A DNA stretch of 52,520 nucleotides from a virus. Both the position numbers and the translations under genes were made by a program. The stretch covers positions 1 to 52,520 of the IMG/VR virus record IMGVR_UViG_3300023179_000146. One strand, written 5' to 3'. The notes beneath the pieces are model-generated. The model worked only from the letters and a program-made list of their open reading frames with translations. It had not been told where the DNA came from and ran no database searches. Each line of letters starts with the position of its first letter. Positions within the stretch are counted from its first letter, which is position 1. Of the stretch, positions 20,594 through 52,464 are shown in pieces.

Positions 20594-21217
20594 TTAATAT
20601 CCAGCAACAAAAGGAGGTTGAATAGTAAAGTTATTATCGATATACTCATCAATCCAGTAATCAAATACAAACTTAGCTTCACAATCTTCCCAAATACCTT
20701 GACCACCCCAATCCAAAGATGGCGATTGAACTGATGATAATTGACAGTTTTGAAAAGTTACTCTTCTCAAAACAAGACCTTTTTTATCATGTTGATTGAC
20801 AATTACAGTTCCAATAATATCAGCTTTATAGTGAAGATAACCATTTTGTGAGTTCCAAACTAAATCGTACCAAGCTCTCAAAGTATTCCAAGTTTCCATA
20901 GAACCTTGACTATTTACGTTCACATTGAATTTGATAGTGAAATCTCCAGAAGATTTATCAGGACCAGCATTCAAGAATTCACGAGTTGAGTATTTGAAAC
21001 GTTGGTTACTAGCTGCAATTTCTTTATTAGTAACACCTAAATCGATGTTTTTAGCTTGTTGTAAAAGCAACACAGGATCTCTACCCTGAGCTTGTAATAT
21101 TGTAGGCAACACGAATGTTATCTCAAATAAATTCATATATACCGGCTCTTGTGGTTGGGTTCCAGGACCACCCGGAGAACCTGTCATTTGTAGTTGAGTA
21201 AAGTGAGGCAAGGGCAT
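20594..21217 (-). CDS. gp19: Tail tube protein, gp19-like
   Basis: A 207-residue protein of the contractile-tail tube family (T4 gp19 is 163). YMNLFEITFVLP, RFKYSTREFLNAGPDKS, then FTIKFNVNVNSQGSMETWNTLRAWYDLV and VLRRVTFQNCQLSSV follow the gp19 strand order; IWEDCEAKFVFDYWIDEY is the closing part. The N-terminal 20 residues (MPLPHFTQLQMTGSPGGPG) are a short Gly/Pro-rich extension. A perfect TATAAATA (minus strand, 21227-21220) ends 2 nt before the ATG, and a strong terminator follows, so the gene is monocistronic as expected for a major structural protein. Confidence 0.88.
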   Translation of the reverse strand: MPLPHFTQLQMTGSPGGPGTQPQEPVYMNLFEITFVLPTILQAQGRDPVLLLQQAKNIDLGVTNKEIAASNQRFKYSTREFLNAGPDKSSGDFTIKFNVNVNSQGSMETWNTLRAWYDLVWNSQNGYLHYKADIIGTVIVNQHDKKGLVLRRVTFQNCQLSSVQSPSLDWGGQGIWEDCEAKFVFDYWIDEYIDNNFTIQPPFVAGY

Positions 21218-22238: not shown

Positions 22239-23183
22239 ATGGCAGATAATTTATCAGAAGAAGACTATCTCAAAAAACACATAAAGGACTTAGAAGGTGG
22301 AAACGAGAAAGTAAATCCAAATCAAAGTATGTTCGATTTTGTTGCTCAAACACAACCTAATGCAAATCGTGTAACTGATCTTCAATTTTTGTCCTTTGAT
22401 ATAAAAGAGTTACCGTGTGGTAAATTCTATCCACAAGGCACTACTTTCTTAGTAAGAGCAGCACAAGTTAAAGAAATTCAATCATATTCAATGGTTGATG
22501 ATAATAATTTTTATGATATCGTTGAAAAAATGAATGATATGTTACAAGCTTGTGTTCGTGTGAAATACGCTGATGGTAAAATGGGAAGCTACTTAGATAT
22601 AAAAGACCAAGATAGATTATATCTAATCTTTCTTATTCGTGAATTGACCTTTCAACAAGGAAATGCTTTAGCAGTCACAGTAAAATGTACTTGTGGTGCA
22701 GATAATTCAGTTGAATTAGTTCGTAAAAACTTTAGATTTCATCAAATAGATGAAAAACTTGATAAGTTTTATGAAAAAGGTAAAAGTTCTTTCTCTTTCA
22801 CAACAGTAAATGGAAAAGAGTTTGAATTAACACCACCAAACATTGGTTTACAAAAATCTTTTGCTGATTATATCATTAAAGAAAATAATGAAAAAAGACC
22901 ACCAAATTTAGCATTCTTGAAAATTATTCCCTTTATGTTGAATGGAAGAACCAATATTACCTACGAAGGCATTAAGGTTAAACTCAAAGAATTCGAAGAT
23001 TTAGATGATATTTCATTTCAATTCTTGAACGCCGCTGTCGGAAAAATGACATTTGGTGTAAAAGAATTAGCCAACAACTGTACTGCGTGTGGAGTGGAGG
23101 TCCGCACTGATATGACATTTCCCAACGGAGCGTCAGGTATTTTCGTTGTTCATGATGCCTTTGAGACCTTTATTAAAAAATAA
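22239..23183 (+). CDS. gp26: Baseplate hub protein, gp26-like (T4_baseplate family)
   Basis: A 314-residue protein. After an acidic N-terminus, FLSFDIKELPCGKFYPQGT and AAQVKEIQSYSMVDDNNFYD match the family signature (LPSxGxxYP... then a helix with an 'E-D/E-x-I' turn). VKYADGKMGSYLDIKDQDRLYLIFLIREL and a Cys pair VKCTCGADNSVEL form a zinc-ribbon-like insertion shared with cyanophage homologues; a second pair CTACGVEV lies near the C-terminus. T4 gp26 belongs to the baseplate hub. The small gene that follows overlaps it in the +1 frame. Confidence 0.75.
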   Translation: MADNLSEEDYLKKHIKDLEGGNEKVNPNQSMFDFVAQTQPNANRVTDLQFLSFDIKELPCGKFYPQGTTFLVRAAQVKEIQSYSMVDDNNFYDIVEKMNDMLQACVRVKYADGKMGSYLDIKDQDRLYLIFLIRELTFQQGNALAVTVKCTCGADNSVELVRKNFRFHQIDEKLDKFYEKGKSSFSFTTVNGKEFELTPPNIGLQKSFADYIIKENNEKRPPNLAFLKIIPFMLNGRTNITYEGIKVKLKEFEDLDDISFQFLNAAVGKMTFGVKELANNCTACGVEVRTDMTFPNGASGIFVVHDAFETFIKK

Positions 23184-23476: not shown

Positions 23477-26400
23477 TTAAGCTGTGATGAAACCACCTGC
23501 TTGAATCGCTCCGGTTCTAAGAATTGTGATGTTATTCACAATGATTCCCATACCTTTGATTGGTTCAACGTAGGTATCAAGAACACCGATTTGGTTATCG
23601 ATAATTTCTGATGTGTTGTTTTCTTCGTCACACTTATTGAAGTAATTGTAAAGACCGTTCTTAGAAACGTACTTTTCACAAATTACGTCAGCTCTCAACT
23701 TAATTTCAGCTCTGATTTCAGGAGTGTTGAACTTCCATTGGAAATCTAACAACATTCTTGATAATTCTCTCTCAAGTTCAATCAATACCTCTCTAACGTG
23801 AATGTAAGAAAGAGCAGATCTATAAAGAGTTTGAGCAGTATTTTCTGTTTCAATCACATAACCTCTATTTCTCTTGAACACAATTGGGTTCATTTGAGCT
23901 TGGTTAAGATTCTCGATATCTGTTGGTGTGAAATCTCCTTCAAGACCAGCAATATTTGTAATTCTACCGTTTGTCACACCAGCCGCAATTGTCCATGGAA
24001 CAATTGTCGTAACTGTTGAGTTATGCTTTCTCATATAAGTTAATCCAACGTAAGCTGAAGGTGGAACATCAACTGGTCTACCATTATCATTTACAGTCAA
24101 ATAAGGAGTGAAATAACCAACTGCTGATACGCCTCGCCCGTCACCGAATGAGTAAAGAAATGCTGGATTACTTTCTGGGTCACCACCCTTAGCTATAAAC
24201 TCTGTCTGTAAAACTCCTTCAGCATTGACAAATGATGGAGAAGATGAGTTTTTAAAGCTTCTTAATGAAGGCATGTTTATTATACCAAAACAATCAAGTC
24301 TATCACCACAAATATCCACTAACTGTTGTTTACTTCTTTCAGTCAAACCTAAACCGAATGAATCGATTAAGTATCTGAAATCAAAAGCTTCTTTATTCGT
24401 AGCGGCTTTGAAAAGAGGTGTACCTTTTGCAACTAAATCAAGAATTGCTTGTTGTTTAGCTTCTGTACCATCAGGTAATGAATCTTGTCTAACTCTGAAT
24501 CCCTTCAAGCTAATTGCTTTGTAAGTTGATACATAGTCATCAATTGCAGTGTATCTAAATGTCTGTTTATCACCAGTACCAAAGTCAGATATTTTAATCT
24601 CAGCATCACAAGTGATTTCAACTAAATTAGAATCACCTGTCCAAGTCTTCTTAGATAGAATTCTTGTCAATTTTTTAGGCATTTGGTTTGGATCCAATGA
24701 TGCAGTTGCATAATTTGCTTCAAGATAATCACCAATTTTAACTTCAGTGTATCTAGAACCTCGAACAAGAATCTTGTTTGGTTGATATGTATATCCACTC
24801 GGAAATTCCAATTCAATCGACTGTTTGTAGTTAGAGTCTAAAGATTTTACCCAAGTAGTATTATTAGACCAAATAGGTTCTCCCATACCATCGATGCTGT
24901 CTAAAGGCACTGAAGACTGTAAAAGTGAATCTTGAAACTCTGTTTTCAAATTAAGTTCACTATCAAGATACATATTCAAATAAATTGGTCTATCAGCAAA
25001 GTTATCACTATAAGCGAATAGGTTATTAAGTTTACTCAAAAACTCATCTTTAACATTCTGCTCAACCTCGAAAGCGTAGTAACTATAAGTCGATGAACCG
25101 AAGAATCCATAAGCAGTACCGGATAATGTGTCCAAAGCATAAGCTCTTGTAATTGCTGTTAATGGTGAAACTTGACCAGTGAGTGTGGTTAAACCACCTG
25201 CTAACTGAAGAGCCTCATTAGTTGAATCATTCAAACCACTATCTGTCATTACTTTAAATACTCCTGAATTTTGAGCTCCTGACAACAAGAACTGATAATC
25301 ATCCACAACATTGTTGAAGAAATCTTTGTTTTTAGTAATTATTTCAGACATTGTAAGTCCAAAGTAATTCGTTTCTTTTTCGTTTACACCGAAAACAATA
25401 TAATCATATCCAGCTAATATATCATTAACAGATTCTCCACTAATCCATTGTACTTGAAGTGGTGAATAGTTAGTTTTTTGATAAATCACATCAGTTGTAT
25501 TGATAAATCCTTGTTCATATGATTGATAGTAATTAGAATATCTAGACACAACACCTACTGTACCAGCGATTGTTGACTTAGTCTCAAGTCCTTGTTTTCC
25601 AAGTATGAATTCATTATCAAATTTATAAACAACCAATGGAACATTGTAATCAGCTAATGAAGAAACATCTGTTCCAGACACAAAATAATTATCTACATAA
25701 TCATCATCAACGACAATGTTGTTTGAAGGATTTGTAGTAGGTATAGAACCAACAATCTCAAATGATCTATTAAGAGTGTTGACATCTTTAATATTTTTTA
25801 TGGTTATTAAAGCTAAACTTACTTTTTGGCTGAATCCATCTAAAGGATAGGTATTAGGAATCGGATCGAAAAGTAATACACCTTTGTCAGAAGATGATCC
25901 ATTCAAATAATCTAAAAGATAATTGAATGTCTTAATCTTTCTGTATCTCTCATAATCTCTCGGAGTAATAGATTGATTTGTATCAGGAAACTCAACTTTG
26001 AAAGAAGCAGAACCGGTAATTGTATAAGTAAAGTCAACACCAGCAATCAAAGGTTTGAAAGCAGCATCACCAGAACCAAGAACTGTTCTATCAATTGTCA
26101 CATCATGGAATGTCACAGAAGCTGTAACGAAAGCTCCAGCGTAGTGTGAGAAAGAAGCGTAACCCAAGACAATATCTGTAGCAGCAACCAAAGGCTTAGT
26201 ATTAGGCGAAGTTGTCTGAACAGATTTTATTGTACCTGAAGTATCAACAACGAATGCCGAATAGAAAGATTTAGCTGTTCCAGTTGTTAATGTATTATAG
26301 TAACTTGAACTAAGTTTTATGACACCATTCAAGTTAGTATTACCATTTGGATCTGATGCGGTATCGTTAATTTCAACGTATTGACCACCGATTATAGCAT

Positions 26401-27766
26401 ATCCATTATTAGAAGTAGCATCAACATCATAAGTTATTGAAACAGTTAAACCAGTAGCGGTTGCAGTCGTCACATTTAAATCATTAACATAACCTTCACT
26501 AAACCAATAAGTTCTCTCAGCTCCATTAGCCGTTGGTGTTATATAACCTTCTTTGATACCACCCGAAACACCAACATTAGACATATCTGTACTCAAGTAA
26601 GAGTGAGGTCCTGCTGATATAGGTTTAGATTGTGTACCAAACAAAGCCATAACGTTCCCTGGTCTATCAAGAACAGTTTGAACAAATGGATTGCTCTCTG
26701 TGATTGTTTCTTCATATGACAAGAATTTTATTTTAACTTCACCATCACCAGAACCATCATTAATATCTAACTCACCAAAGTTAGTGTAACCAGATGTTGG
26801 TGGGTTTGATAATAAATCATCACCAACCATGTTATTACCTATAAGGTCAACCAATCCTGTTGGATAGTCAGTTTCAAAAAGATCGGCATTGAATGAACAG
26901 AAAACTCCATGTTGGTCTGTTCCTCTATTAATAACAGTCTCAATAAAAATATTTTGACCGTTCAAATCTCTAAAGTATGGAATTAAAGACAAACCATCAG
27001 CATAAGCCAATGTTGTTACATTTCTATCATTAGTGAAGGGAATCACTTGATTCTTTCTCAAACCTTCAGGTGAGAAGTAATTAGAAAATCTTGGATCAAC
27101 TGATAAGCTTCTATAATCAGAATAATCACCAGCAACAACAACAACATCTACTAAATAATCAGAGGCTAAATCGGTAGGATTTACATAAGGAGGTAATTTT
27201 TCTATACCACCATACCACTCAAGAAGCGGTCTATCAAAACCAACTTTCTTAGATTTGAAAACAAAGATAGTCACATACTTATCAGATAAGTTTGTGAAGT
27301 TTAATACTCTCTTTTCATAATCAAGATCAGCTTTTGTTATATTGATGAATGATTCTGTATCTCTTTTCCAGAAACCAGTAGTATCGAAAAATCTTCTATA
27401 AGGAGCTAATCTCTCAATATCGTTTTGAGCAGTTGTTTGAGCAGAAAGAGATTGATACTCGATTCTATCAAGTGCATCATCAGTTAAAAGCAAGTTGATT
27501 GCAAAAACTGGAGAAGATTCTAACATCTTAGATATTGTTCTATGAAAGAAAGAACCCTTTCTCTCTAATTGTCTATCAAGAGGTCCAAATATATTTTCCA
27601 ATTCACCAATTGTCTTCAACAAAATAGGTGTATTAACTGGTCCTTTCTTGGAAACTCCAATGATGGTATTTGTTATACCTTCAACAATCGGACTTGAAAT
27701 CACTGATTGGTCAAATTCTTCGATGAAGATTCCTGGTCTTTTGTATTTACCGATTTGGATTGCCAT
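23477..27766 (-). CDS. gp18: Tail sheath protein, gp18-like, unusually large
   Basis: A 1429-residue sheath protein, more than twice T4 gp18 (659). The N-terminus is typical (YKRPGIFIEEFDQSVISSP, then GVSKKGPVNTPILLKTIGEL, IFGPLDRQ). The C-terminal core is also typical: YVGLTYMRKHNSTVTTIVPW, NPIVFKRNRGYVIETENTAQ, YIHVREVLIELERELSRML, and MGIIVNNITILRTGA. Between about residues 330 and 900 lies inserted beta-rich material, with Thr/Ser/Gly-rich segments (TATATGLTVSITYDVDATS), probably one or more surface domains. Sheath subunits slide and shorten to drive the tube into the cell. A TATATATA box lies 27 nt before the ATG; the stop is followed by a strong terminator. Confidence 0.93.
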   Translation of the reverse strand: MAIQIGKYKRPGIFIEEFDQSVISSPIVEGITNTIIGVSKKGPVNTPILLKTIGELENIFGPLDRQLERKGSFFHRTISKMLESSPVFAINLLLTDDALDRIEYQSLSAQTTAQNDIERLAPYRRFFDTTGFWKRDTESFINITKADLDYEKRVLNFTNLSDKYVTIFVFKSKKVGFDRPLLEWYGGIEKLPPYVNPTDLASDYLVDVVVVAGDYSDYRSLSVDPRFSNYFSPEGLRKNQVIPFTNDRNVTTLAYADGLSLIPYFRDLNGQNIFIETVINRGTDQHGVFCSFNADLFETDYPTGLVDLIGNNMVGDDLLSNPPTSGYTNFGELDINDGSGDGEVKIKFLSYEETITESNPFVQTVLDRPGNVMALFGTQSKPISAGPHSYLSTDMSNVGVSGGIKEGYITPTANGAERTYWFSEGYVNDLNVTTATATGLTVSITYDVDATSNNGYAIIGGQYVEINDTASDPNGNTNLNGVIKLSSSYYNTLTTGTAKSFYSAFVVDTSGTIKSVQTTSPNTKPLVAATDIVLGYASFSHYAGAFVTASVTFHDVTIDRTVLGSGDAAFKPLIAGVDFTYTITGSASFKVEFPDTNQSITPRDYERYRKIKTFNYLLDYLNGSSSDKGVLLFDPIPNTYPLDGFSQKVSLALITIKNIKDVNTLNRSFEIVGSIPTTNPSNNIVVDDDYVDNYFVSGTDVSSLADYNVPLVVYKFDNEFILGKQGLETKSTIAGTVGVVSRYSNYYQSYEQGFINTTDVIYQKTNYSPLQVQWISGESVNDILAGYDYIVFGVNEKETNYFGLTMSEIITKNKDFFNNVVDDYQFLLSGAQNSGVFKVMTDSGLNDSTNEALQLAGGLTTLTGQVSPLTAITRAYALDTLSGTAYGFFGSSTYSYYAFEVEQNVKDEFLSKLNNLFAYSDNFADRPIYLNMYLDSELNLKTEFQDSLLQSSVPLDSIDGMGEPIWSNNTTWVKSLDSNYKQSIELEFPSGYTYQPNKILVRGSRYTEVKIGDYLEANYATASLDPNQMPKKLTRILSKKTWTGDSNLVEITCDAEIKISDFGTGDKQTFRYTAIDDYVSTYKAISLKGFRVRQDSLPDGTEAKQQAILDLVAKGTPLFKAATNKEAFDFRYLIDSFGLGLTERSKQQLVDICGDRLDCFGIINMPSLRSFKNSSSPSFVNAEGVLQTEFIAKGGDPESNPAFLYSFGDGRGVSAVGYFTPYLTVNDNGRPVDVPPSAYVGLTYMRKHNSTVTTIVPWTIAAGVTNGRITNIAGLEGDFTPTDIENLNQAQMNPIVFKRNRGYVIETENTAQTLYRSALSYIHVREVLIELERELSRMLLDFQWKFNTPEIRAEIKLRADVICEKYVSKNGLYNYFNKCDEENNTSEIIDNQIGVLDTYVEPIKGMGIIVNNITILRTGAIQAGGFITA

Positions 27767-27801: not shown

Positions 27802-27830
27802 AAATAGAAAAAACCATATTTTTCTATTTT
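27801..27830 (-). terminator. AT-rich hairpin, possible weak terminator
   Basis: Perfect 12-bp stem AAAATAGAAAAA / TTTTTCTATTTT around a 6-base loop. It overlaps the stop codon of the gene at 27824-28429 and the sheath promoter box. All stem pairs but two are A-T, so stability is low. Confidence 0.35.
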
Positions 27831-28429
27831 TGACTAAGATTTTTAATTTTCTGCTCCTCCAATTTCATCATAGCTTCGAAATTAGTCTTCTTAGTTTGAT
27901 AATTTTTATCAATCTTTGCATATTCAGATTTATTATAAAGTATTGTTTGATTCAAAGTATTCAAATAAGTCCTACTTTTCTCAATTCTTTCTGATACTTT
28001 AGATTTTTGTGAACTATCATCTAACTGATTGAATCTATCTTTCAAGTCATTCATTTGTTTAGTTAATTCATCTACTCTTTTCTTATCAGTTTCAAGCTGA
28101 GTTGCTAATCTATCAGCAGTTCTTTTCAGAGTATAAACACTCTCTAATTCTTTGAGATATCGATTTCTTTTTTTGACATCTCTTTGATTAGCATAAACAT
28201 TTTTTTGTAAATCATTATTTATTTCAGAGTCTTGTCTTTCAGAATCATCGAATATTTTTTTCATTACATCTTTCTTCGACCTATAATAAGCAATATCCTT
28301 TTGAATCATATTAAGTGATTCTTTATTGGTCTTTTCGTTATCACTGATTAATTCTTCTGCTCCTGGTGTTTCTTTAATCTCTACACCATCTGCCTCCAAG
28401 AAAAGCTCAAATCTTTTAAGAAATTTCAT
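27824..28429 (-). CDS. Coiled-coil protein with capsid-targeting-like leader
   Basis: A 201-residue protein. It starts MKFLKRFELFLEADGVEI: leader followed by LE-A, which fits the L/I-x-E cleavage rule of the T4 prohead protease. Everything after residue 35 is Lys/Glu/Asp/Gln-rich and heptad-like (LKELESVYTLKRTADRLATQ, ETDKKRVDELTKQMNDLKDR), predicting a long coiled coil. This is the composition of phage scaffold or internal proteins. The ATG lies 4 nt after a TATATAT box (28434-28440). No homologue recognised. Confidence 0.75.
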   Translation of the reverse strand: MKFLKRFELFLEADGVEIKETPGAEELISDNEKTNKESLNMIQKDIAYYRSKKDVMKKIFDDSERQDSEINNDLQKNVYANQRDVKKRNRYLKELESVYTLKRTADRLATQLETDKKRVDELTKQMNDLKDRFNQLDDSSQKSKVSERIEKSRTYLNTLNQTILYNKSEYAKIDKNYQTKKTNFEAMMKLEEQKIKNLSQK

Positions 28430-28455: not shown

Positions 28456-28485
28456 AAAAAACCCGATTAAATCGGGTTTTTGTTT
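28456..28485 (-). terminator. Intrinsic terminator after the 664-residue gene
   Basis: Stem AAAAACCCGAT / ATCGGGTTTTT with loop TAA, extended by further A-T pairs. It begins at the stop of the minus-strand gene at 28484. Confidence 0.85.
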
Positions 28486-40398: not shown

Positions 40399-40989
40399 AT
40401 GAAACACATTAGAAAATTTGAATCTTATCGTAATAACAAGAGAAGAGATGAAATCATAAAAGAATCAGTTCTTCAGGTTAACGACATTTATAAAGTAAGA
40501 ACTTTGATTGATATTCCACAATCTCTTATTAACGCTTATGTTAAAAAAGTTAAAGACAACACTGGTAAAAATCTTAGACAATTCTTTGGTGATGTAGATA
40601 TCGCAGAAGAAATTGTAAAATATGTTACTTTGAACTTCACTAATGTTGATCAAGTTCCAGCTGGTGCACTTACTGGAGACGCTCAAGGATCACCAGAAGG
40701 ACAAACTCAAGCTCAGTCACAAACTGAACCACAAGCTCAAACCCAAGCTCAGCCACAAACTCAAACTCAAGCTCAGCCACAAGCTCAAACTCAGAGTCAA
40801 GGGCAGGCACAAGTACAAGTTCAAACAGAAGCTGAACCACAAGCTCAGCCACAAGCCCAAACTCAAGGTCAAGCACAGGTTCAAGGTCAAGGTGAGTTTG
40901 AAGAAGTAGGTGAAGAAGAGAAAGAAGGCACTGAAGAAGAACCTCAGGGACAAGCTCAAGAAGAAGGCGAAGAAGAATTACCTCTATAA
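40399..40989 (+). CDS. Capsid-targeting-leader protein with long Gln/Ala repeat
   Basis: A 196-residue protein. It begins MKHIRKFESYRNNKRRDEII, the recurring leader. Residues about 25-90 are helical and resemble a small folded domain (VRTLIDIPQSLINAYVKKVK; LRQFFGDVDIAEEIVKYVTL). Residues about 98-165 are a near-pure run of QAQ/QTQ/PQAQ units, followed by an acidic tail (GEEEKEGTEEEPQGQAQEEG). The low-complexity part is probably disordered. Ends at a strong terminator. The leader and disordered tail would suit an internal head protein; function unknown. Confidence 0.75.
   Translation: MKHIRKFESYRNNKRRDEIIKESVLQVNDIYKVRTLIDIPQSLINAYVKKVKDNTGKNLRQFFGDVDIAEEIVKYVTLNFTNVDQVPAGALTGDAQGSPEGQTQAQSQTEPQAQTQAQPQTQTQAQPQAQTQSQGQAQVQVQTEAEPQAQPQAQTQGQAQVQGQGEFEEVGEEEKEGTEEEPQGQAQEEGEEELPL
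40695..40895 (+). repeat. Gln/Ala-coding tandem microsatellite-like repeat
   Basis: About 200 bp of imperfect 6- to 18-bp units such as CAAGCTCAAACTCAA and CAGCCACAAGC, all in the frame coding Q-A-Q-x-Q. Expected to vary in copy number by slippage. It generates long false frames on the other strands. Confidence 0.75.
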
Positions 40990-41062: not shown

Positions 41063-41680
41063 ATGGAATGGATAAAAACATTTGAAAGTTACAATACAAT
41101 CGAAGACTTAATTATTGTTGATGTTCAAAAATCATTTAGTAAATTTTTTACCGAAATGTATATAAATCAACTAACTAAACATTGTGTCAATTTTAAAAAT
41201 GTTTATCAAGTATTTGACAACCACCACGAAGGTAAAAATGTTGATAAAGATTATCTTTATGATGAAAATCCAGAGATACCGGTATCAGATGAGTTTTATA
41301 GTTTTCCAAATATAAAAGAAAGAATAGAAAAAAGATACAACTATAAAGTAGATGCAGATTTCTACAAGAAGATACTTGATAAAGAAGTTTATGATGAGGT
41401 ATCAAGTTTAGAAGAAAAGAAACAACTAAAGAAAGGCGATATGTTTCCAACGAAAGAAGGGACTGTAATAGTCTATATTGGTAATAATCACGTATGGTTT
41501 CATTCTAGTAAAAAACTATACGATGTGTTACAATCCTTAAAAGGTAAAACAGTAGAGATAGTAGGTGGTTCAGATTCAGAATGTTTGGAAGATGTAGTCA
41601 CTTTAGCAGAAAAAATAGGTGTTCTTATCAAAAGAAATTATAAATATATTTGGTCAGCATCACATTGTCCTATAAGATAG
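41063..41680 (+). CDS. Isochorismatase-like cysteine hydrolase with capsid-targeting-like leader
   Basis: A 205-residue protein. Leader MEWIKTFESYNT; then LIIVDVQKSFSKFF, where Asp20 is the catalytic Asp of the isochorismatase fold (usual 'xxxxDxQxxF'). Near the end GKTVEIVGGSDSECLEDVVT gives Cys174 in the position of the family's nucleophile (G-x-x-x-x-x-C-V), followed by the expected helix and YKYIWSASHC. Length and Asp/Cys order match cysteine hydrolases such as nicotinamidase or N-carbamoylsarcosine amidase; the middle part is diverged. Packaging into the head is inferred from the leader only. Substrate cannot be told. Confidence 0.65.
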   Translation: MEWIKTFESYNTIEDLIIVDVQKSFSKFFTEMYINQLTKHCVNFKNVYQVFDNHHEGKNVDKDYLYDENPEIPVSDEFYSFPNIKERIEKRYNYKVDADFYKKILDKEVYDEVSSLEEKKQLKKGDMFPTKEGTVIVYIGNNHVWFHSSKKLYDVLQSLKGKTVEIVGGSDSECLEDVVTLAEKIGVLIKRNYKYIWSASHCPIR

Positions 41681-42192: not shown

Positions 42193-42852
42193 TTAAGATT
42201 GTAATTGTGTTTCAGACTTAGGTAGTACTTCTGATAAAAGAACATCAGAAGCATCCATTCTCAGAGCCCACTGTTGAATATCTTCTGGTAAGGCTTTGGC
42301 ACGAGCATCATAGTAATTAATCACTTTAGAAACTTCTCCGATTCTCATTAATAACTTAGAGAATATATAAGCTTCTTTGGTCAAACCCTTGACTTTATGA
42401 CTCTGTATCAAATGATAAATATAAGTTAGCTCAGTTGCTGTAACTTCAAATAATTTGATGTCAGTATCATTTTGATACTTAGTTCCCTCCATAGTACCAA
42501 GAAGTTCAGTAAGCTCGATAGCGATGAAAACAGTATTAACATCATAATCCAACTTCTTTAAGAGAAGGTCTGTCAAAAGATTATATTGAGGTCTATTCAA
42601 GTAGAAGTTAAACTTAACATCTCTTAGAGTTTTTTTATATTCATTGTAAAGATATTGAGCATTTCCGTAGATGGCATCTTTTGCTTCTTCTACTAATCCA
42701 TGTCCTGGATTATTTTTCATGAAATTTTCTACTTCTTCAATTTTTGAGTCTAACATTAATTCTCTATCGAAGTTTAAAAGTCTATTCAAAACTTCATTTT
42801 CAAAAAATGATAACTCAGGTTTTACAGTATTTACTTGTACGGTTTGATTCAT
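42193..42852 (-). CDS. Unknown 219-residue helical protein
   Basis: A mostly helical protein: ELSFFENEVLNRLLNFDREL, then NAQYLYNEYKKTLRDVKFNF, then VNTVFIAIELTELLGTMEG. No family recognised. Last gene of a minus-strand unit of three small genes (43532 to 42193, gaps 9-14 bp) closed by a terminator. The unit carries no leader motifs and no membrane segments, unlike the neighbouring genes, so a DNA-metabolic or assembly-factor role is as likely as a virion role. Confidence 0.7.
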   Translation of the reverse strand: MNQTVQVNTVKPELSFFENEVLNRLLNFDRELMLDSKIEEVENFMKNNPGHGLVEEAKDAIYGNAQYLYNEYKKTLRDVKFNFYLNRPQYNLLTDLLLKKLDYDVNTVFIAIELTELLGTMEGTKYQNDTDIKLFEVTATELTYIYHLIQSHKVKGLTKEAYIFSKLLMRIGEVSKVINYYDARAKALPEDIQQWALRMDASDVLLSEVLPKSETQLQS

Positions 42853-43106: not shown

Positions 43107-43532
43107 TTAGAATGTGAACTCTTCAGTACCATCAGCCTTTTGTTGTTGATACAATTCTTCAACTTGATTTGCCTTTGCGACTTTTTCTACACCATATTTA
43201 GTGATTAAAGCTGAAAAAGTTGATAAATCTGGTTTAATCATTTTAATTTTTCCGGACTCAGTTTCAATAGAAATTTTATCAATTTCTTGTTCAATCAGAA
43301 TTGAAATAGATTCTTCATCAAATACGTTGAAAAGATCCTCATTAACTGAAACTAACAACTCTTTATTCAAGAGAAAAGTGTATTGATCAGCCAATTTAGA
43401 AATTTTAATTAATTGTTTTTGTTTTTCCGAACCAATAAATTGGAAACCTACTGAAATCGGAAAAGATTTTTTGTTAAACACATCGAAGAACTCTTTTTGA
43501 GTGTCCTCAGAAACTTCGTAAAATTTACTCAT
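43107..43532 (-). CDS. Unknown 141-residue protein, first gene of a three-gene unit
   Basis: Begins MSKFYEVSEDTQKEFFDVFN; continues GFQFIGSEKQKQLIKISKLA, LLVSVNEDLFNVFDEESISI and ends KVAKANQVEELYQQQKADGT. The SEDT...KQKxLIKI...NEDxFxxFDExS pattern resembles a small protein found in several T4-like phages (from memory) without known activity. The HExxH motif that would make it a peptidase is absent. No terminator separates it from the next two genes. Confidence 0.7.
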   Translation of the reverse strand: MSKFYEVSEDTQKEFFDVFNKKSFPISVGFQFIGSEKQKQLIKISKLADQYTFLLNKELLVSVNEDLFNVFDEESISILIEQEIDKISIETESGKIKMIKPDLSTFSALITKYGVEKVAKANQVEELYQQQKADGTEEFTF

Positions 43533-43578: not shown

Positions 43579-44010
43579 TTATCCTTTCCATAACCAAAAT
43601 GTGAAAGTAATTAAACCAATAACTGAAATAACAGGCAATAGAATTCGATATATTATCTTATTAATCTCAACAGAATCTAATTGTTTATAACCAATAACAA
43701 TTAAATAAGAATATTTATCAACCTTTTTGATGGGTTCATAAAAATCATATAATTCAGAAATACCTATTGAGTTAAGAAAAGTAGATAATTCATTTATATA
43801 ATCTCTAATGTAATTTTGAGATATTCTATCTATATCATCTTTTCTTAGATTATAAGGCTCTTCAACAAGATTGGTTGGTATGTTCAGAACCGTGTACATT
43901 CTATCAGCGTTGTCAATTCTCATGTTAAAATCTCCCTCAAGTCGCACTTTGTTCTTATTAATCGCTGACTTATAGGAGAAGAATAATCTCAAATCTTTAA
44001 AAATACCCAT
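43579..44010 (-). CDS. Unknown protein with C-terminal membrane helix
   Basis: A 143-residue protein: N-terminal soluble part (FKDLRLFFSYKSAINKNKVR), a middle with YLIVIGYKQLDSVEINKII, and a C-terminal membrane helix at about 118-140 (ILLPVISVIGLITFTFWLW) followed by Lys-Gly, so tail-anchored. It starts 13 bp after the stop of the giant hydrophobic protein gene and may be its co-expressed partner. Confidence 0.65.
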   Translation of the reverse strand: MGIFKDLRLFFSYKSAINKNKVRLEGDFNMRIDNADRMYTVLNIPTNLVEEPYNLRKDDIDRISQNYIRDYINELSTFLNSIGISELYDFYEPIKKVDKYSYLIVIGYKQLDSVEINKIIYRILLPVISVIGLITFTFWLWKG

Positions 44011-44023
44011 ATAAGATTATATA

Positions 44024-47000
44024 TCAAAAAGAATCAGATGTTGATATTTTTTTAAACTGAACATCTATTTTAGAATAATCAACAGAGTAGAATCCATTTT
44101 TATCTATAATTAAAGCCTCTTCAAATTGAGTATTTAGTAGCTCTTGTGCAATTACACCCTGATAAATAACTCTCGGATTGAAAGTATATGTAAAGTGATA
44201 AATATTTATTCCACTAACCGACTCACCAACTTTCTTTAATATGTTTTTTAATCTTTTATCAGAACGACCCGTACTATTGGGAACATTACCAGATGAACTT
44301 AATTGATTTTCTTTTACAGAAAGTAAATAGTTTTTAAGTGCACCTCTCGAACCAACCACACTAGAAATATCAGCTAGTAAAGCTGTCATCCTATCTACTT
44401 TTTCTGCCAAAATTTGTCCCTCGGTTTTTTGATTGTTACCTTTAGGAGTTACTTTCATAGCGGTTGCAGTAGGTGAGGATTCTTTTTTACCTTCGAAATC
44501 TTTAATCAATTCGGCAAATATTCCACCTTTCTCTTCTATCTTATCCAATACATCTTCTAACATATCAGGATCCATAAGAGATAACATTATAACATTATTA
44601 GCCATACTCTTAACTAATCCAAGTTTTTCAACATCCAATCCTTGAATCGAATTCGAAAAAGTATTCATAGATGAACCCAATTTTTCGAATGCCATAGCCA
44701 ATAAAGTTATGTTAGAAACAGCCTGTTCCAATGGACTTTTCGAAAATAGGTTTGATATTTTACCAAATAATCCACCTGATTCCGGCGCATCAAAATTTAA
44801 CATTCCAATTATTGATTTGAACTTTTGTAAGGCAGTAATTGTACCATTAATCCACTCTACTTTCGGAAACTTTGTAAAATCTCCAAGACTAAATATTCTA
44901 TCTACTCTGACTATTAGTTTAGCTATATCCAATAGAGAATCACTAGAACTTGCACCAAATAGACCCGCAATACCTTCACCAATAGCACCTAATACACTCT
45001 GATTTGACATCAACTTCTGAAATTTAGTCATAGCTGATATTGCACCAGTGACCCATTCATCTTTTGGATATATTTTATAAGCACCTCGACTAAATATAGC
45101 ATCAATTCCAACAATTGTAGCTGCCATACCTAAAGCAACTAAAGAACCTATCAATATTAAAGGACTTAGAAGTGAAATAGACGCAGATATAGTTGCGAAC
45201 TTTGCCAATAATGACATCGTAGGATTAACCCACTTGTCTGGTGGATAAGTTTTATATGAACCCATTTGAAATAACTTATCAATCAAAAGTATCGTACCAG
45301 CTATAACTAAAGCTGTAGCCGAACCGATTACAATTATCGGTGAGACCAGACCAAGTAAAACAGACATAGCAGCGAATCCACCAAGAATTGACATAGTTGG
45401 AATAACCCACTCACTTGGAGGATAAACTTTATATGATCCCATTTGAAATAATTTATCAATTAAAAATATTGTACCAACTATTAAAAGAGCTGTAACCATA
45501 CCAGCAACTATGATTGGAGAAACAATCCCCAATAGAACAGCCATAGTCGCAAATCCACCAAGAATTAACATAGTCGGAACAACCCACTCACTTGGAGGAT
45601 AAACTTTATATGATCCCAATTGGAAAATATATGAAACACTTACAATCGCAAGAGCAACGACTGCAATCATTGCTAGACCTGCGTAGAAGAATGGATTAAA
45701 AACCTGAGTTCCTAATAATATAGCAGTCAATCCAAAAAAACCAAGTGCTAAACCAACACCCATCGACCATCCCATACTCGGAAACTTATCATAGTTACCT
45801 GTTGATAAAATATAAGAAACCGCAACAATCGAAGCGGCTATTATAAGGATTACTCCGAGTCCCATATAAAACATTGGATTCATTAAGAAATTACCCAATA
45901 ACATAGCAGCAACCGCAAACAGACCTATACTTATGACTGTCCCAATAGACCACATAAGTGGTGGATAGTTTGTGTAGTTCCCAGCAGATATTAAATGAGA
46001 TGAAATCATAATTGTAGTAGCAATTATTATGATTGATAAACCACCTTGAACATAGTCTTTGACACTACCTAATTTTAAAACTAACCAGGTTACAAGTGCA
46101 AAAGCCGCAATCGCTAAACCCGAGAATAAAGTCCAAACGAGTGGTGGATAATTAGTATAGTTTCCCTTAGATAACAAGAGAGAACTTATCATTATAGTTG
46201 TTGCCATTATAACAATGGATAACCCACCATTAAAATAGTCTTTTGGATTACCAAGTTTGTTGACAACTTTCACAGCGACTGCTAAAGCAACTACCGATAA
46301 AGCAATACTTATTGATAAGAATAGAAATTTAGCGATTGTTGAAAAAGAAACAGGACTCATCAACATAAGTAAATATGAAGCACCAACCACCGCAGCAGTC
46401 AAAGCCAATAAAACAAGAGTTCCCATTCCGATCTGTTTTTCTGTTATTCCTTTAACGCCCTGCATTAGTGGTTTCACTGCGTAAGACAACACCACAAACG
46501 TTGCGGCAATTAAAATTGCAGTGAATGCTTGAAATAAACCAATCGGTCTAACAAGAGATAAATAATAAGAAGCTCCAACGATTGCAAGACTCAGTGCAAT
46601 TAGAACAATAGGTATCAGTGCACTAGCAGCGATTGCAGTAGCTGGATTAATACCTTTAAATGCTGAGATTAATTTACCTAATCCAAAAGAGACCACTCCG
46701 AATGCCGCAGCTATCATAATGACTGTTAAAGCTTGATATAACCCTATTGGTTGAACAGCTTGTAAAACAACAGAAGAAGCTGCAATAGCAATACTAACGG
46801 CTAACAAAACTATCGGTAAGACTACTGATGCTTTTAGTGCATCACCTGCCTTAATATCTTTAAAAGCTTTCAATAAATTACCAAGGCCAAATGCAGCGGC
46901 TCCAAATGCAGTCGCGATGAATATGACAGTCAACGCTTGAAATAAACTAATTGGAACTACTTTGGTCAAAACACGAGATGCTAACATGATTGCAATAGAT

Positions 47001-47500
47001 AATCCAACAACTGATAATCCTATCATTAGAACTTTACCAGGAGTCAAATCTTTAATTTTTGCCATCTTTTCAAATGCAAAAGCTATCATCGGAAGAGCCA
47101 CTGATATTGCTAAGACAGATTTCCAATCAACAGTACCTATTAATTTGAAAGCCAAACCTATTGCGAGAACAGCACCAGCAATTAGAACTATTGCTGATAT
47201 ACCATCTTTTAACATCTTCTTACTTTTTTCTTTACCAGCTCCTTCAAACACATTCATTGATTTATCCTTCTTTTCTTTCTGAAGTTTAATGATGGTCTGT
47301 TGATTATCGAGTATTTTCTTATTATCACTTCTCAAATCTTGTATACCTTTAGTGATTTTTTTCAATTCTTCACCAAAATTACCAGATTGCATAGCAGTAG
47401 CAGTAGGACTTTTTGCCTCTTTATTTTTATTCAGAGAATCGGTCAACATCTCTAAGGCAATTGAAAGGTTATCTAATGCTGCTAATAATTGTTTATCCAT
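44024..47500 (-). CDS. Giant multi-hydrophobic tape-measure-like protein with C-terminal S74-type chaperone
   Basis: A 1158-residue protein. Residues 1-95 are soluble and helical (KITKGIQDLRSDNKKILDNQ). From about 100 to 850 it is a chain of some 20 hydrophobic segments in repeat units that share GxYxxYPPxxW, LGGFAxM and SPIIVxG (for example FQMGSYKVYPPSEWVIPTMS). A soluble part follows, then at about 1078-1158 GRSDKRLKNILKKVGESVSG, YQGVIAQELLN and GFYSVDYSKIDVQFK: the S74 intramolecular-chaperone signature (S1080, K1085 as the self-cleaving pair). SPTATAM occurs twice, at 31-37 and near 1010. Most likely the tail tape measure protein, which often has hydrophobic repeats, but an S74 end on such a protein is unexpected. 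Confidence 0.65.
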   Translation of the reverse strand: MDKQLLAALDNLSIALEMLTDSLNKNKEAKSPTATAMQSGNFGEELKKITKGIQDLRSDNKKILDNQQTIIKLQKEKKDKSMNVFEGAGKEKSKKMLKDGISAIVLIAGAVLAIGLAFKLIGTVDWKSVLAISVALPMIAFAFEKMAKIKDLTPGKVLMIGLSVVGLSIAIMLASRVLTKVVPISLFQALTVIFIATAFGAAAFGLGNLLKAFKDIKAGDALKASVVLPIVLLAVSIAIAASSVVLQAVQPIGLYQALTVIMIAAAFGVVSFGLGKLISAFKGINPATAIAASALIPIVLIALSLAIVGASYYLSLVRPIGLFQAFTAILIAATFVVLSYAVKPLMQGVKGITEKQIGMGTLVLLALTAAVVGASYLLMLMSPVSFSTIAKFLFLSISIALSVVALAVAVKVVNKLGNPKDYFNGGLSIVIMATTIMISSLLLSKGNYTNYPPLVWTLFSGLAIAAFALVTWLVLKLGSVKDYVQGGLSIIIIATTIMISSHLISAGNYTNYPPLMWSIGTVISIGLFAVAAMLLGNFLMNPMFYMGLGVILIIAASIVAVSYILSTGNYDKFPSMGWSMGVGLALGFFGLTAILLGTQVFNPFFYAGLAMIAVVALAIVSVSYIFQLGSYKVYPPSEWVVPTMLILGGFATMAVLLGIVSPIIVAGMVTALLIVGTIFLIDKLFQMGSYKVYPPSEWVIPTMSILGGFAAMSVLLGLVSPIIVIGSATALVIAGTILLIDKLFQMGSYKTYPPDKWVNPTMSLLAKFATISASISLLSPLILIGSLVALGMAATIVGIDAIFSRGAYKIYPKDEWVTGAISAMTKFQKLMSNQSVLGAIGEGIAGLFGASSSDSLLDIAKLIVRVDRIFSLGDFTKFPKVEWINGTITALQKFKSIIGMLNFDAPESGGLFGKISNLFSKSPLEQAVSNITLLAMAFEKLGSSMNTFSNSIQGLDVEKLGLVKSMANNVIMLSLMDPDMLEDVLDKIEEKGGIFAELIKDFEGKKESSPTATAMKVTPKGNNQKTEGQILAEKVDRMTALLADISSVVGSRGALKNYLLSVKENQLSSSGNVPNSTGRSDKRLKNILKKVGESVSGINIYHFTYTFNPRVIYQGVIAQELLNTQFEEALIIDKNGFYSVDYSKIDVQFKKISTSDSF

Positions 47501-48039: not shown

Positions 48040-48331
48040 ATCTTGGAAACAATTTAACGAGAGAAATATTCCAATCGGAACTCAAACAGTTGGTGGTGCT
48101 AGTGGTGGTACAACTGCTCCTGTCGGACCAATGGGACCTAATTATGGTTCAGTGAAACTTAGAAATAGTACGATATCAACAAATGATACTGAAGTAATCT
48201 ACTCTGAAATAGATTCTAGAATTTATACTTACGATGATTATCAACAAATTTACCAAGACTATTTAAAAAGGGGTGGAAAACCTCTTCAAGGTTTCAATCA
48301 AGAAAATTTAGTTAAAATATTAACTTTTTAA
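48032..48331 (+). CDS. Small protein with capsid-targeting-like leader and Gly-rich segment
   Basis: A 99-residue protein. MIKSWKQFNERNIPIGT is a leader variant (W-K-Q-F-N-E). A Gly/Pro/Thr-rich stretch (VGGASGGTTAPVGPMGPNYG) follows, then a folded C-terminus (VIYSEIDSRIYTYDDYQQIY). No homologue recognised. Coupled to the preceding gene by an 8-bp overlap, and ends 4 bp into the convergent tail-fibre gene. Confidence 0.65.
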   Translation: MIKSWKQFNERNIPIGTQTVGGASGGTTAPVGPMGPNYGSVKLRNSTISTNDTEVIYSEIDSRIYTYDDYQQIYQDYLKRGGKPLQGFNQENLVKILTF

Positions 48332-49755
48332 ACACCAAAAATTGGTATTTTACCATCCACACCATTTACAGTAACACATAACCAAAAAGCTGGATTTTTT
48401 AAGTTACCACCATATTCAGTGAATGTAGAAGAAGTTCCAAGTGGGTAACTTGAAGAAGCAAGTGATAATTGACAATCCTTCCATATTTTAGCACCAGTAC
48501 CAATTGCTATCGAATTAGAATATGTAGCCGACATCGTTGGTCCTGAACCAGAACCCAAAAACACATTGAAACAAGAGTTAAATCCTAAATTCGTACCTAT
48601 ACCATCACCAATTAACACATTAGATACTCCATTAGCAAGTTCTGCTGCTCGATTACCCATCGCAATTCCCAAACTAGTAGTAGTATATCTAGCAGCGCCA
48701 GATCCTATAAAAATGTTATCATTTAAACCGTCTATACTACCACCAGCTAAATAACCAATCACAATATTTCCATTTCCACCAGTATTTGATAAACCAGTAT
48801 CCTGTCCTATAAATATATTACCATAACCAATCGTGTTAGAACAACCACTTCTATACCCAGAAAATACGTTTCCACTTCCAGTTGTATTTTTGACACCACT
48901 ATCAGAACCTATAAATACATTAGAGGCCCCAGTTGAAGTCAAACAACCCGCTCTGAATCCAATCATCACATTATAATCAGACTTAGATGTATATCCAGCT
49001 GCAGCTCCAATAAAAACATTTGCAGTACTTGATGTTGCTGAGTATCCAGCAAATGCACCTAAAAATGTATTGGAATAACCACAAACATTACTAAAACCAC
49101 CACTAAAACCAAGAAATGTATTATTGTAACCGGAAGTATTTGAAAATCCTGAGAGAACTCCAATAAAACTATTACATTTGGCCGAGTTGTTGTATCCAGC
49201 TCTAAAACCCATAGCTACCGTACATTCAGAAGAAGTACCAGCATATCCTGCAAAATCACCTATGAAAGTATTGATACAACCTTTTGTGTTGTTGAAAGCC
49301 ACACAATCGCCTATAAATATGTTATAAGTTCCAACTGTATTTGGGGCCCCACATCGACCAATAACTATACTTGAAGTTGCAACAGTACTGTTTAACATCG
49401 CGTCCTTACCCAAAGCTATCACACCGTCAGCGTTTAATAAGTTTTTACCTGCGTTCGCACCAGCTAAAAGAGAACTATTTACCACAGAACTTGCAGAAGC
49501 CGCTCCAAATCCAACAAAAACATTACTTGAACCAGTATTTAAGGTTGGTTTTTCAAGCACAGTAATTGTTGAAGTAGTACTATCAGAACTCAATGACGGG
49601 ACTTTACCACTTTGAAGGCCAAAACTTTCAAACGTTCTATATTTTGTAAAACCACCATTATCATCCCAAACTAAAATGTATTCACTACTACATTCTGAAA
49701 CAGTTCCAAGTTGTAGTGATGATTCTATGTAAGCCCTATCTATTGAATATGTCAT
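48328..49755 (-). CDS. Tail-fibre protein with about 20 'NTFIGxxAGxxN' beta-roll repeats
   Basis: A 475-residue protein. Residues 1-75 form an N-terminal attachment part (MTYSIDRAYIESSLQLGTVS). From about 75 to 425 it is built from roughly 20 repeats of 20-24 residues, for example NIFIGDCVAFNNTKGC, NTFIGDFAGYAGTSSE, NTFLGAFAGYSATSS, NVFIGAAAGYTSKSD. The pattern is that of the YadA-head-like trimeric beta-roll. The C-terminal part (SLASSSYPLGTSSTFTEYGG; FWLCVTVNGVDGKIPIFGV) would be the tip. It is probably a host-binding fibre. Next to a second fibre gene 16 bp upstream. Confidence 0.8.
   Translation of the reverse strand: MTYSIDRAYIESSLQLGTVSECSSEYILVWDDNGGFTKYRTFESFGLQSGKVPSLSSDSTTSTITVLEKPTLNTGSSNVFVGFGAASASSVVNSSLLAGANAGKNLLNADGVIALGKDAMLNSTVATSSIVIGRCGAPNTVGTYNIFIGDCVAFNNTKGCINTFIGDFAGYAGTSSECTVAMGFRAGYNNSAKCNSFIGVLSGFSNTSGYNNTFLGFSGGFSNVCGYSNTFLGAFAGYSATSSTANVFIGAAAGYTSKSDYNVMIGFRAGCLTSTGASNVFIGSDSGVKNTTGSGNVFSGYRSGCSNTIGYGNIFIGQDTGLSNTGGNGNIVIGYLAGGSIDGLNDNIFIGSGAARYTTTSLGIAMGNRAAELANGVSNVLIGDGIGTNLGFNSCFNVFLGSGSGPTMSATYSNSIAIGTGAKIWKDCQLSLASSSYPLGTSSTFTEYGGNLKNPAFWLCVTVNGVDGKIPIFGV
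48510..49560 (-). repeat. About 66-bp tandem coding repeat in the tail-fibre gene
   Basis: Degenerate repeats of 60-72 bp coding for N-x-F-I/L-G-x-x-A/S-G-x-x-N-T. Third positions are varied, so this is an old repeat kept by selection on protein shape rather than a recent expansion. Confidence 0.7.
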
Positions 49756-49771
49756 ATTTTATATATTTAAT

Positions 49772-52168
49772 TTATTCAACATATGTTGTTGATGTCCAGA
49801 AAACGTCTCCAGTAAATGGAATATTTGAGTTAGAATTGACTACAAAACCAGTGGCCAATTTATTTTCAACTGTCCAAGTTCTGGGATCCTCACCAGTAAT
49901 CTGAACACCATAATTTGTATTTAAATATGGAGAAGAAAATGTGACGCCATACTTTAGTATGCTTGCACCTGAAAAAGAGGCCCCACTTATAACATTAGAT
50001 TTATAATCTATTTGTTTATATCCGAGTTCTTTAGTTGTGCTATCCCAAGTTACAAAATTACTTGAAGAACTTAATGTCAAACCACCAACTGAGATTGTAC
50101 CAGTATCCGTAACAGCAAATAAATCATTAGATCCAACATCTTGAATTGAAAAAGTGCCAGTAATAGTATTTTTTATACCAGATTCATTTAACTCAATACT
50201 ATTTACTACTCCTAAAGAAGCAGAAATATAATATAAATCCAAACTATATGTGTAAGCAAAAATATTAGAGAAAATACCATTCGGTAAATCCCAAACAGAC
50301 ATATAAACATAGTCGGACTGAACAGCCAACTGATTATAATATCCAGTAGTTCTATCGATTGAAGCCAATGCTGCTCCAAAAGTTCCACCAGCATTCGTAT
50401 TGTTGAAAACACCAGCACCTCTTATAGTATTACCATCATCATAGTACGCAACTGCACCCGAAATAGTAGCGAAATAACCATCAAAGTCACTATTAATAAA
50501 TTGAAAACCATTTGTATTTGTTTGTGAAAATGAACCGGTTCTACTTAATTCTAAAAATGTATTTGTGCTATAATAATCAGTAATTTGAAAAATATTATTA
50601 GTCGAAGATGTTCCTATTGAAACACTTGGATATCTGTTACCACCCTCAATAGCACCAGAAACAAAGAGAACTCTACCTTGATCATTTCTTAAATCTAAAA
50701 TATCCTGAACATTACTTACTCCGGTATCAACTACCAATCTAGCCCAATTCTCATCACCAATCGTTTTATCTTGTTCAGCCAAAGATCCATCAATTAAAAT
50801 CCCCGAATTTCGGATATGTAATTTCTTTAGCGGATCATTAGTCGAAATTCCTAAGTAGTTGTCTAATGGAGAAGAATAAGTGGCGGTTAAATAAGCGCTT
50901 GAAGTTGAATAAACTAAATTATCTGACTCAGTTAAAACTCGAGCATAAGTACCACTCAAAGGGATATATTTCAATTCACTTTCAAAAAGAATTCTTCCAG
51001 ACTTTCCATACTTAATCTCTGTTATATCAACTTTCAAATTATCATCAGCAACAGTTACTAAATCATAAACTTCAACATTACCCATATTATTGACCAGAGA
51101 TCCTGTAGCAGCAACAAATGCACCATTCGCCACAACTACTTTACCATAAGTCGCGATGTCAAGAGTTCCAAAAACAGTCAAATCACCATAAATCCAATAT
51201 TCCTCATAGTTAGGCACTGTCACAGTTTCAGTTGATTGTATCACATATTTAGCAGCTCTACTTTGAGTCGCGGCTGCTAATGCTGATATAACTAAAGAAT
51301 TTCCAGAATTTGATAAAGAGATACCAGTACCAGCCACAATATCAGAAGATACTTTTCTAGTACTTAATGAAGTTGCTTCAATAGAGATACCAGTTCCACC
51401 ATATATCTGAGTCAACATATCAACTTGTTGAATAACTGAAGAACTACCATGTAGTGTAATAGAACCAGTACCGGATATTGCACCATTTAAAACAACTACT
51501 TTACCATTACCATACACATTAACTAAACCATCCACATTCAAATCACCATAAATCAAGTACTCAGAGTTAGTTCCAACATTAATTGTAGTAGATGATTCTA
51601 TATTCCAAAGAGGATTGAATATATCTCCGACAAATTCTTGTTTAGTCCAAGTACCACTCGGATAATCATCATTCAAATAAACGTAAAGACAAGTAGTTTC
51701 ATTATCAACACGAACAGTTGTACCTTCAGTTGGTGCGGTCAAATCATAAGATAGTCCATTCCATTCCACTATCAAATCATTAAAAGTTGTCCAAATTCCA
51801 CTACCACTAACAACTAAGTATCTATCACCAATTGAAGGTGATACCGGTGGGGTACCACTTCTGGAAATGACAGAATCTAACCATTCGCCACCAGAACCAC
51901 CACCACTAAAAGTAACAAGGTTCCAGTTAAGATTATCAGATAAATTAGCCGAATTAGTAGTCTTCAATTGAAAGAACTCATCAGTACTTAAAACATAAAC
52001 CAACATACCAAAACTTCTTCTATCATATGTTATGGCATCTCTGTCTGTATATGTGTTTACTGTATGATAACCACCTAATAATTCATTTGCAACCGCTGTT
52101 GCCATCGGAGAATTTGTAGATAGGGGTCTTATAGTTGATGATACTAAGGTTCCTTTGTTTTTAGACAT
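49772..52168 (-). CDS. Large tail-fibre/adhesin-like virion protein
   Basis: A 798-residue beta-rich protein. N-terminal YTDRDAITYDRRSFGMLVYV and LSTDEFFQLKT form a baseplate-attachment-type motif common in Bacteroidetes-phage fibres. The middle contains two related passages (EYLIYGDLNVDGLVNVYGNG and EYWIYGDLTVFGTLDIATYG), a GTGISL segment pair, and NYLGISTNDPLKKLHIRNSG, typical of long shaft regions. The C-terminus ILKYGVTFSSPYLNTNYGVQ, then ITGEDPRTWTVENKLATGF and NSNSNIPFTGDVFWTST resembles an H-type-lectin-like receptor-binding tip. No S74 chaperone is present here. TATATATT lies 23 nt before the ATG. Confidence 0.8.
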   Translation of the reverse strand: MSKNKGTLVSSTIRPLSTNSPMATAVANELLGGYHTVNTYTDRDAITYDRRSFGMLVYVLSTDEFFQLKTTNSANLSDNLNWNLVTFSGGGSGGEWLDSVISRSGTPPVSPSIGDRYLVVSGSGIWTTFNDLIVEWNGLSYDLTAPTEGTTVRVDNETTCLYVYLNDDYPSGTWTKQEFVGDIFNPLWNIESSTTINVGTNSEYLIYGDLNVDGLVNVYGNGKVVVLNGAISGTGSITLHGSSSVIQQVDMLTQIYGGTGISIEATSLSTRKVSSDIVAGTGISLSNSGNSLVISALAAATQSRAAKYVIQSTETVTVPNYEEYWIYGDLTVFGTLDIATYGKVVVANGAFVAATGSLVNNMGNVEVYDLVTVADDNLKVDITEIKYGKSGRILFESELKYIPLSGTYARVLTESDNLVYSTSSAYLTATYSSPLDNYLGISTNDPLKKLHIRNSGILIDGSLAEQDKTIGDENWARLVVDTGVSNVQDILDLRNDQGRVLFVSGAIEGGNRYPSVSIGTSSTNNIFQITDYYSTNTFLELSRTGSFSQTNTNGFQFINSDFDGYFATISGAVAYYDDGNTIRGAGVFNNTNAGGTFGAALASIDRTTGYYNQLAVQSDYVYMSVWDLPNGIFSNIFAYTYSLDLYYISASLGVVNSIELNESGIKNTITGTFSIQDVGSNDLFAVTDTGTISVGGLTLSSSSNFVTWDSTTKELGYKQIDYKSNVISGASFSGASILKYGVTFSSPYLNTNYGVQITGEDPRTWTVENKLATGFVVNSNSNIPFTGDVFWTSTTYVE

Positions 52169-52218: not shown

Positions 52219-52464
52219 ATGAAACATCTTAAACCTTTTAACGAATCCATCGATGATGAAATAAAAAATGAAATCAGACAATCAGTAGAAGATTGTTTTT
52301 TAGACTATACAACGGATTATGGAATGAAAATTCAATTTGTAGATGGATTCTATGTACCTGGTTATCATTTTATGTCTGAAAGATTATTAGATGGTACTGT
52401 GAAAAATATCATTTATCTCGCTTTTTTCAGATTTATCCAATTTGTAATCCTGATAATTCTCTAA
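52219..52464 (+). CDS. Small protein with capsid-targeting-like leader, possibly frameshifted
   Basis: An 81-residue frame. It starts MKHLKPFNESIDDEIKNEIR (leader with NE-S), goes on as a soluble mixed domain (MKIQFVDGFYVPGYHFMSER), then turns abruptly hydrophobic at the end (YLAFFRFIQFVILIIL). The sudden change of composition suggests the natural gene is longer and that a base is missing or extra near 52415-52440; it could also be a genuine short membrane tail. Confidence is for the gene's existence. Confidence 0.55.
   Translation: MKHLKPFNESIDDEIKNEIRQSVEDCFLDYTTDYGMKIQFVDGFYVPGYHFMSERLLDGTVKNIIYLAFFRFIQFVILIIL

Follow-up and report, generated by a model that had tools for sequence, protein, structure and literature searches.

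A candidate tape measure protein with a short C-terminal S74 domain in contractile-tailed megaphages

The tail tape measure proteins (TMPs) of JBD30, T5, 80-alpha and diffocin are trimers anchored by their C-terminus at the hub or spike; for JBD30, T5 and diffocin, the TMP has been proposed to exit the tube and then form a membrane channel (PMC11445458, PMC10038345, PMC10996793). Tail assembly involves proteolysis of the TMP in T5 and lambda, and T4 gp5 too is cut (PMC10038345). For S74 domains, crystal work on MyRF identified the C-terminal triple coil as the chief driver of trimerisation, with cleavage occurring in trimers only (PMC8326128). A literature search for S74 joined with a tape measure found no such combination described; PMC7824862 uses the two terms in separate contexts.

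Here we analyse a 1158-aa protein encoded on the minus strand at 44024..47500 of the window, by which we mean the whole stretch of DNA examined, a 52,520-base virus record that is probably a fragment. The best joint explanation, to which we assign a probability of roughly 0.6, is that this protein is the TMP of a contractile-tailed megaphage and carries a clade-specific short S74 domain that would cut itself off during tail assembly. The parts are known; not found described were the combination of a TMP with S74 and the occurrence of a coil-less S74 on tail-conduit proteins. An earlier note on this DNA had also called its ideas undescribed. The same note had treated tape measure and membrane channel as alternatives, a choice that falls away given that the JBD30, T5 and diffocin TMPs have already been proposed to act as a channel.

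A long hydrophobic-repeat protein in the tail module

The open reading frame starts with ATG and has no internal stops. Several independent contigs carry an intact copy of the S74-ended gene, so an assembly or frame artefact was rejected. Residues 1–95 (47216..47500, minus strand) form a soluble, predicted helical N-terminal region that is conserved across the family alignment, with a dN/dS of 0.05–0.28 against clade members (unsaturated pairs). Residues 96–440 (46181..47215, minus strand) comprise hydrophobic helices, recognised from conserved columns and hydropathy, among which is a class of ~68-residue repeats with conserved prolines at 183, 251 and 319. This class lies upstream of residues 441–935 (44696..46180, minus strand), where eight GxYxxxPxxxW turns (residues 446, 507, 568, 629, 688, 747, 806 and 873; spacing 59–67) follow one another at intervals of about 60 residues and, according to a low-confidence secondary structure prediction, are separated by helices. 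Shuffling yields 0.012 such turns per shuffle (maximum 1), so the conserved turns that the earlier note had singled out stand well above expectation. Residues 936–1079 (44264..44695, minus strand) are C-terminal helices and a linker, which S74-less relatives share and at which they stop. The short S74 domain itself occupies residues 1080–1158 (44027..44263, minus strand).

Scanning with a 19-residue window (mean Kyte-Doolittle of at least 1.6) gave 23 non-overlapping hydrophobic segments between residues 96 and 804. With the residues shuffled, the mean was 14 and the maximum 22 (1000 shuffles); the count of 23 is thus mostly a matter of composition, with residue order contributing further. The earlier figure of about 20 hydrophobic repeats is thus better described as roughly 4 + 8 two-helix units. 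At the DNA level, TRF found only 2.4 repeat copies. A full-length AlphaFold model of the protein reached a pLDDT of 45.3, too low for use.

When 50,697 phage records were searched at the protein level, the repeat region was matched only in unannotated metagenomic phages of 634–735 kb. IMG/VR provided five close relatives and then 117 candidates, of which 80 were kept, representing 71 distinct proteins. Full-length relatives range from 848 to 2186 aa, with repeat rows gained and lost across the alignment, and the gene occurs exactly once per record in the eight large records considered (249–735 kb). The relatives also have neighbours in common: downstream, a 143-aa protein, a PhageMetallopep protein and a protein of about 220 aa, and on the other side two small divergent genes. 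In the window, the downstream neighbours, all on the minus strand, are the 143-aa protein with a C-terminal membrane-type segment (43579..44010), a 141-aa PhageMetallopep family protein without HExxH (43107..43532) and a 219-aa protein that is a candidate TMP-associated factor (42193..42852). The PhageMetallopep protein was considered as a processing enzyme for its neighbour and rejected, as HExxH is missing in 62/62 distinct relatives; judging by this sequence pattern, it is probably a conserved pseudo-enzyme linked to the tail module.

Since the window holds a terminase, a 1429-aa tail sheath protein (23477..27766, minus strand) and a tail tube protein (20594..21217, minus strand; phrog_45), we consider the virus a contractile-tailed phage. 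In LR756502, a 642 kb record, a tube protein with 71% identity to that of the window is encoded near the TMP gene. A 314-aa protein (22239..23183, plus strand), hub-assembly- or chaperone-like by position, is related to the gene just before the TMP in record L189 and in Chryseobacterium phage MA9V-2. These tube, assembly-like and sheath genes lie 16–23 kb from the candidate TMP gene. The corresponding genes in LR756502 all fall within about 21 kb (TMP 175557–178544, tube 180251–180868, assembly-like 191270–192217, sheath from 192321). Of this record, 638/642 kb were screened, and the TMP-family ORF alone has at least six membrane-like segments; seven other long uncharacterised proteins of the record were without any TMP family match.

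Both L189 and MA9V-2, to whose tube and assembly-like proteins those of the window are homologous, have the gene order sheath, tube, assembly protein, long hydrophobic repeat protein. Elsewhere among phages with related tail genes, the occupant of the TMP position is a 2073-aa protein, likewise with an S74 end, or, in the cultured Chryseobacterium phages MA9V-2 and MA9V-1, a 1082-aa protein. The 1158-aa protein itself has no match to described TMP families in Pfam, PHROG or PDB. TMPs are highly divergent, so we did not treat a family match as defining and made the assignment by position and architecture. The protein has the tail-module location, the single long helical gene and the repeat-based length variation of a TMP, and we regard it as very probably one. 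Among the readings offered by the earlier note, tape measure is thus the identity best supported by position, architecture and the single gene per record.

Two other identities were weighed. The roughly 23 membrane-like segments, together with the membrane-type segment of the 143-aa neighbour, would also suit a protein integral to the membrane of the infected cell, or one injected to form a pore. We find this improbable, as the gene occurs once per record, in the tail module and with no competing TMP candidate in LR756502, its long helical repeats vary strongly in length, and phages with homologous tube and assembly genes place such a protein at the TMP position; moreover, TMPs are expected to form pores anyway. 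Slightly less likely still is that another protein is the real TMP, for example a lysozyme-bearing one (883 aa at 100899–103550 of LR756502; 976 aa in L119). The 976-aa protein does match phrog_9570 'tail length tape measure protein' (5.4e-5), but the match covers residues 753–850 and mostly overlaps that to Phage_lysozyme2 (779–914). The LR756502 protein has no hydrophobic segments (GRAVY -0.54), its gene is some 75 kb away from that of the tube, and such proteins are more simply read as lysozymes of the hub or tail. The earlier note had named a different tape measure together with the lack of an S74 match as evidence that would tell against it, and we found neither.

Returning to the TMP, its length can be set against tails that have been measured. 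MA9V-2 and MA9V-1 have tails of 166 nm and 170 nm, respectively (PMC13414440, PMC10537231), which gives 0.153–0.157 nm per residue for their 1082-aa proteins, as in an extended helix. These two proteins are 96% identical and count as one data point. Aligned by hhalign with the TMPs of L122 and MA9V-2, the window family scored 88% over 159 compositionally biased columns; homology is not established by this, and the comparison of tail lengths is an analogy of gene position. If the same ruler holds, the window phage, with 1079 residues outside the S74 domain, would have a tail of about 165–170 nm. One S74-ended relative (G013; IMGVR_UViG_3300008117_008517, ~117073–117294) has an open frame of 2962 residues, for which 0.15 nm per residue predicts a tail of about 440 nm. 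The assignment would thus provide a tape measure for megaphages with genomes of up to 735 kb, whose records as used here have no annotated genes, and would make their tail lengths predictable from sequence.

Several other genes of the window were noted in passing. The sheath protein matches sheath families in its last ~350 residues alone and so has a very large N-terminal addition. Two fibre-like proteins lie beyond the TMP gene on the minus strand, a 475-aa tail-spike- or fibre-like protein without S74 (48328..49755) and a 798-aa protein (49772..52168; phrog_23630, DUF2793). Adjacent hydrophilic proteins at 28484–30478 (664 aa) and 30482–33451 (989 aa) have a common stretch that is 35% identical, and neither has a convincing Pfam or PHROG family match. 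Many unrelated ORFs open with a shared N-terminal peptide of approximate form M-x-x-[IL]-[KR]-x-[FY]-[EN] (for example MKHIRKFESY and MKYLKKFEGY); in the window these are 40399–40989, 41063–41680, 27824–28429 and 52219–52464. The first of these ORFs (196 aa) also has a long Gln-Ala/Gln-Thr tract (QAQTQAQ), which is conserved in L001 and L003 with differing repeat lengths. Across LR756502 (L091–L103), the peptide was found in 90/906 ORFs of at least 80 aa, compared with 4 after shuffling of the N-termini. It resembles the capsid-targeting propeptide of T4 internal proteins, and may be the tag of dozens of proteins that are packaged into the megaphage head.

The short S74 domain and its other carriers

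Residues 1080–1124 match Pfam PF13884 with 16.2 bits when the whole protein is searched and with 21.9 bits for the isolated domain, against a cut-off of 22. The same family matches 7/7 members of the S74 clade (best 2.1e-5), and two short-S74 carriers, L126 and L129, exceed its cut-off. The 1158-aa protein is also matched by phrog_6121 (1.3e-8). The earlier note was therefore right that an S74 domain ends a hydrophobic-repeat protein, as well as in placing its start at Ser1080. The putative catalytic dyad is Ser1080/Lys1085, with Arg1079-Ser1080 as the proposed scissile bond. Its spacing equals that of S587/K592 in MyRF and S911/K916 in endoNF (PMC8326128), and both residues are invariant in 36/36 short S74 domains, along with the Y/F and AQE core.

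AlphaFold modelled the S74 domain alone with a pLDDT of 89.8. Searched against BFVD, the model gave matches named 'intramolecular chaperone auto-processing' with a TM-score of about 0.7. Foldseek against PDB returned no match with E <= 0.001, and the 50 matches listed included no S74 structure; the sole HMM match in PDB was 3gud (E 0.23). The domain is under purifying selection, with a dN/dS of 0.087 against L010, L011 and L012 and of 0.26–0.32 against L001 and L024. The chain stops 79 residues from Ser1080; 3gud has 129 residues and aligns over just its first 70. By comparison with 3gud and the other short S74 domains, the C-terminal triple coil is absent, for which reason we class the domain as a truncated variant and not as a full S74/ICA member.

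Among the 71 distinct family members, nine have S74, and additional fragmentary ones were found afterwards. A tree of 62 members places its seven S74 rows together on one side of a single branch (support 98), requiring one change; S74 makes up 11% of the rows in this tree, columns below 30% were dropped, and the later-found fragmentary S74 members (L107–L113) were left out. An ancestral S74 is unsupported by this grouping of 7/62 rows. The S74 domain is more plausibly an addition to an ancestral C-terminus in one clade, as the phylogeny suggests. The earlier idea that trimerisation of the tape measure depends on a chaperone was too strong: most relatives are without S74, and the trimerising coil is absent here. 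We also set aside the proposal that a cut restores the ancestral C-terminus as evidence for cleavage. Distances measured from a crude motif agree (median 45 against 43 residues), but any C-terminal fusion would produce such agreement.

The short S74 is found on other carriers as well, so its description as a tail-fibre terminus is too narrow. A search with the window-type domain as probe, which biases the sample toward the GINIY subtype, gave 49 non-redundant carriers: 16 gp5-like hub proteins, ten of a 366-aa DNA-ejection type, nine TMPs of the window family, three of the phrog_20153 type, two MCDPs (T7 gp14-like), two fibre-like proteins, one other TMP and six others. PHROG names of carrier representatives include 'baseplate hub subunit and tail lysozyme', 'DNA ejection protein' and 'internal virion protein'. 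One contig (IMGVR_UViG_3300005613_000037; L119/L120) encodes two S74 proteins, the TMP and a 530-aa structural-type protein, whose S74 domains are mutually closest (support 100/98), which suggests that the module was copied within one genome. Taken together, we tentatively raise the possibility that tape measures, gp5-like hub and ejection proteins, all of the infection conduit, share the coil-less S74 as a general cap that processes itself, is switched on by the trimer of its carrier and marks a correctly assembled complex by its self-cut. Were this so, the trimer would be sensed by S74, not made by it. The range of S74 would in any case extend from fibres to the tail lumen and the ejection machinery.

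Proposed processing and comparison with known systems

Given TMP identity, we judge self-cleavage of the S74 domain to be probable from its sequence features, and propose that the domain caps the C-terminus of a trimeric TMP and then removes itself. Before infection, the TMP chain would lie extended inside the tail tube, where the number of repeats, whose variation is observed, may set tail length. During tail assembly, the short S74 would sit on the C-terminal helices of a trimer made by the TMP, and this trimer would activate it. A cut before Ser1080 by the Ser1080/Lys1085 dyad would then leave an S74-free C-terminus to dock in the baseplate hub. At ejection, by analogy with other TMPs, the hydrophobic helices may enter the host membrane and help form the channel for DNA entry. 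C-terminal cleavage of TMPs is known in lambda and T5, so a built-in self-cutting domain would make this step testable in isolation.

The main rival is a TMP with a short S74 that does not cut and instead stays folded on the C-terminus, serving at the baseplate hub as a plug or for docking. It would account for the missing trimerisation coil, as MyRF cleavage is trimer-dependent (PMC8326128), for a Pfam score just below the cut-off and for the presence of the short S74 on proteins other than beta-helical fibres. However, the dyad serine and lysine, like the Y/F and AQE core, are invariant across 36 domains drawn from many different carriers, and the domain is under purifying selection; we therefore consider a non-cutting domain rather unlikely and favour the self-cleaving one.

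Like T5 pb2, lambda gpH, JBD30 gp46 and diffocin CD1366, the 1158-aa protein is long, mostly helical, present once per phage and encoded in the tail module, and hydrophobic segments are proposed as an entry channel in those proteins as they are here. It differs from known TMPs in having about 23 hydrophobic segments in regular repeats (five are predicted in the diffocin TMP) and an S74 C-terminus in place of a metallopeptidase or plain end, and its sequence relation to them is undetectable. Similar in gene order are MA9V-2 WNN12310.1 and MA9V-1 WIC41273.1, which also have hydrophobic helical repeats downstream of the sheath, tube and assembly genes; these have no S74 and are weakly similar to the window family. 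The S74 domain resembles the S74/ICA domains of endoNF (K1F), the GA-1 neck appendage (3gud), the T5 L-shaped fibre and MYRF in its C-terminal location, SDxxLK start, Ser + 5 = Lys spacing and aromatic and AQE core. In contrast to 3gud, about 67–84 residues remain to the chain end instead of 129, with no coil, and the carrier, in place of a beta-helical fibre, is a helical hydrophobic protein. The same truncated GINIYEF-type S74 stands at the extreme C-terminus of the phrog_13211 gp5-like hub, phrog_4287 DNA ejection and phrog_418 internal virion proteins, which are different proteins of about 256–905 aa with no comparable membrane repeats.
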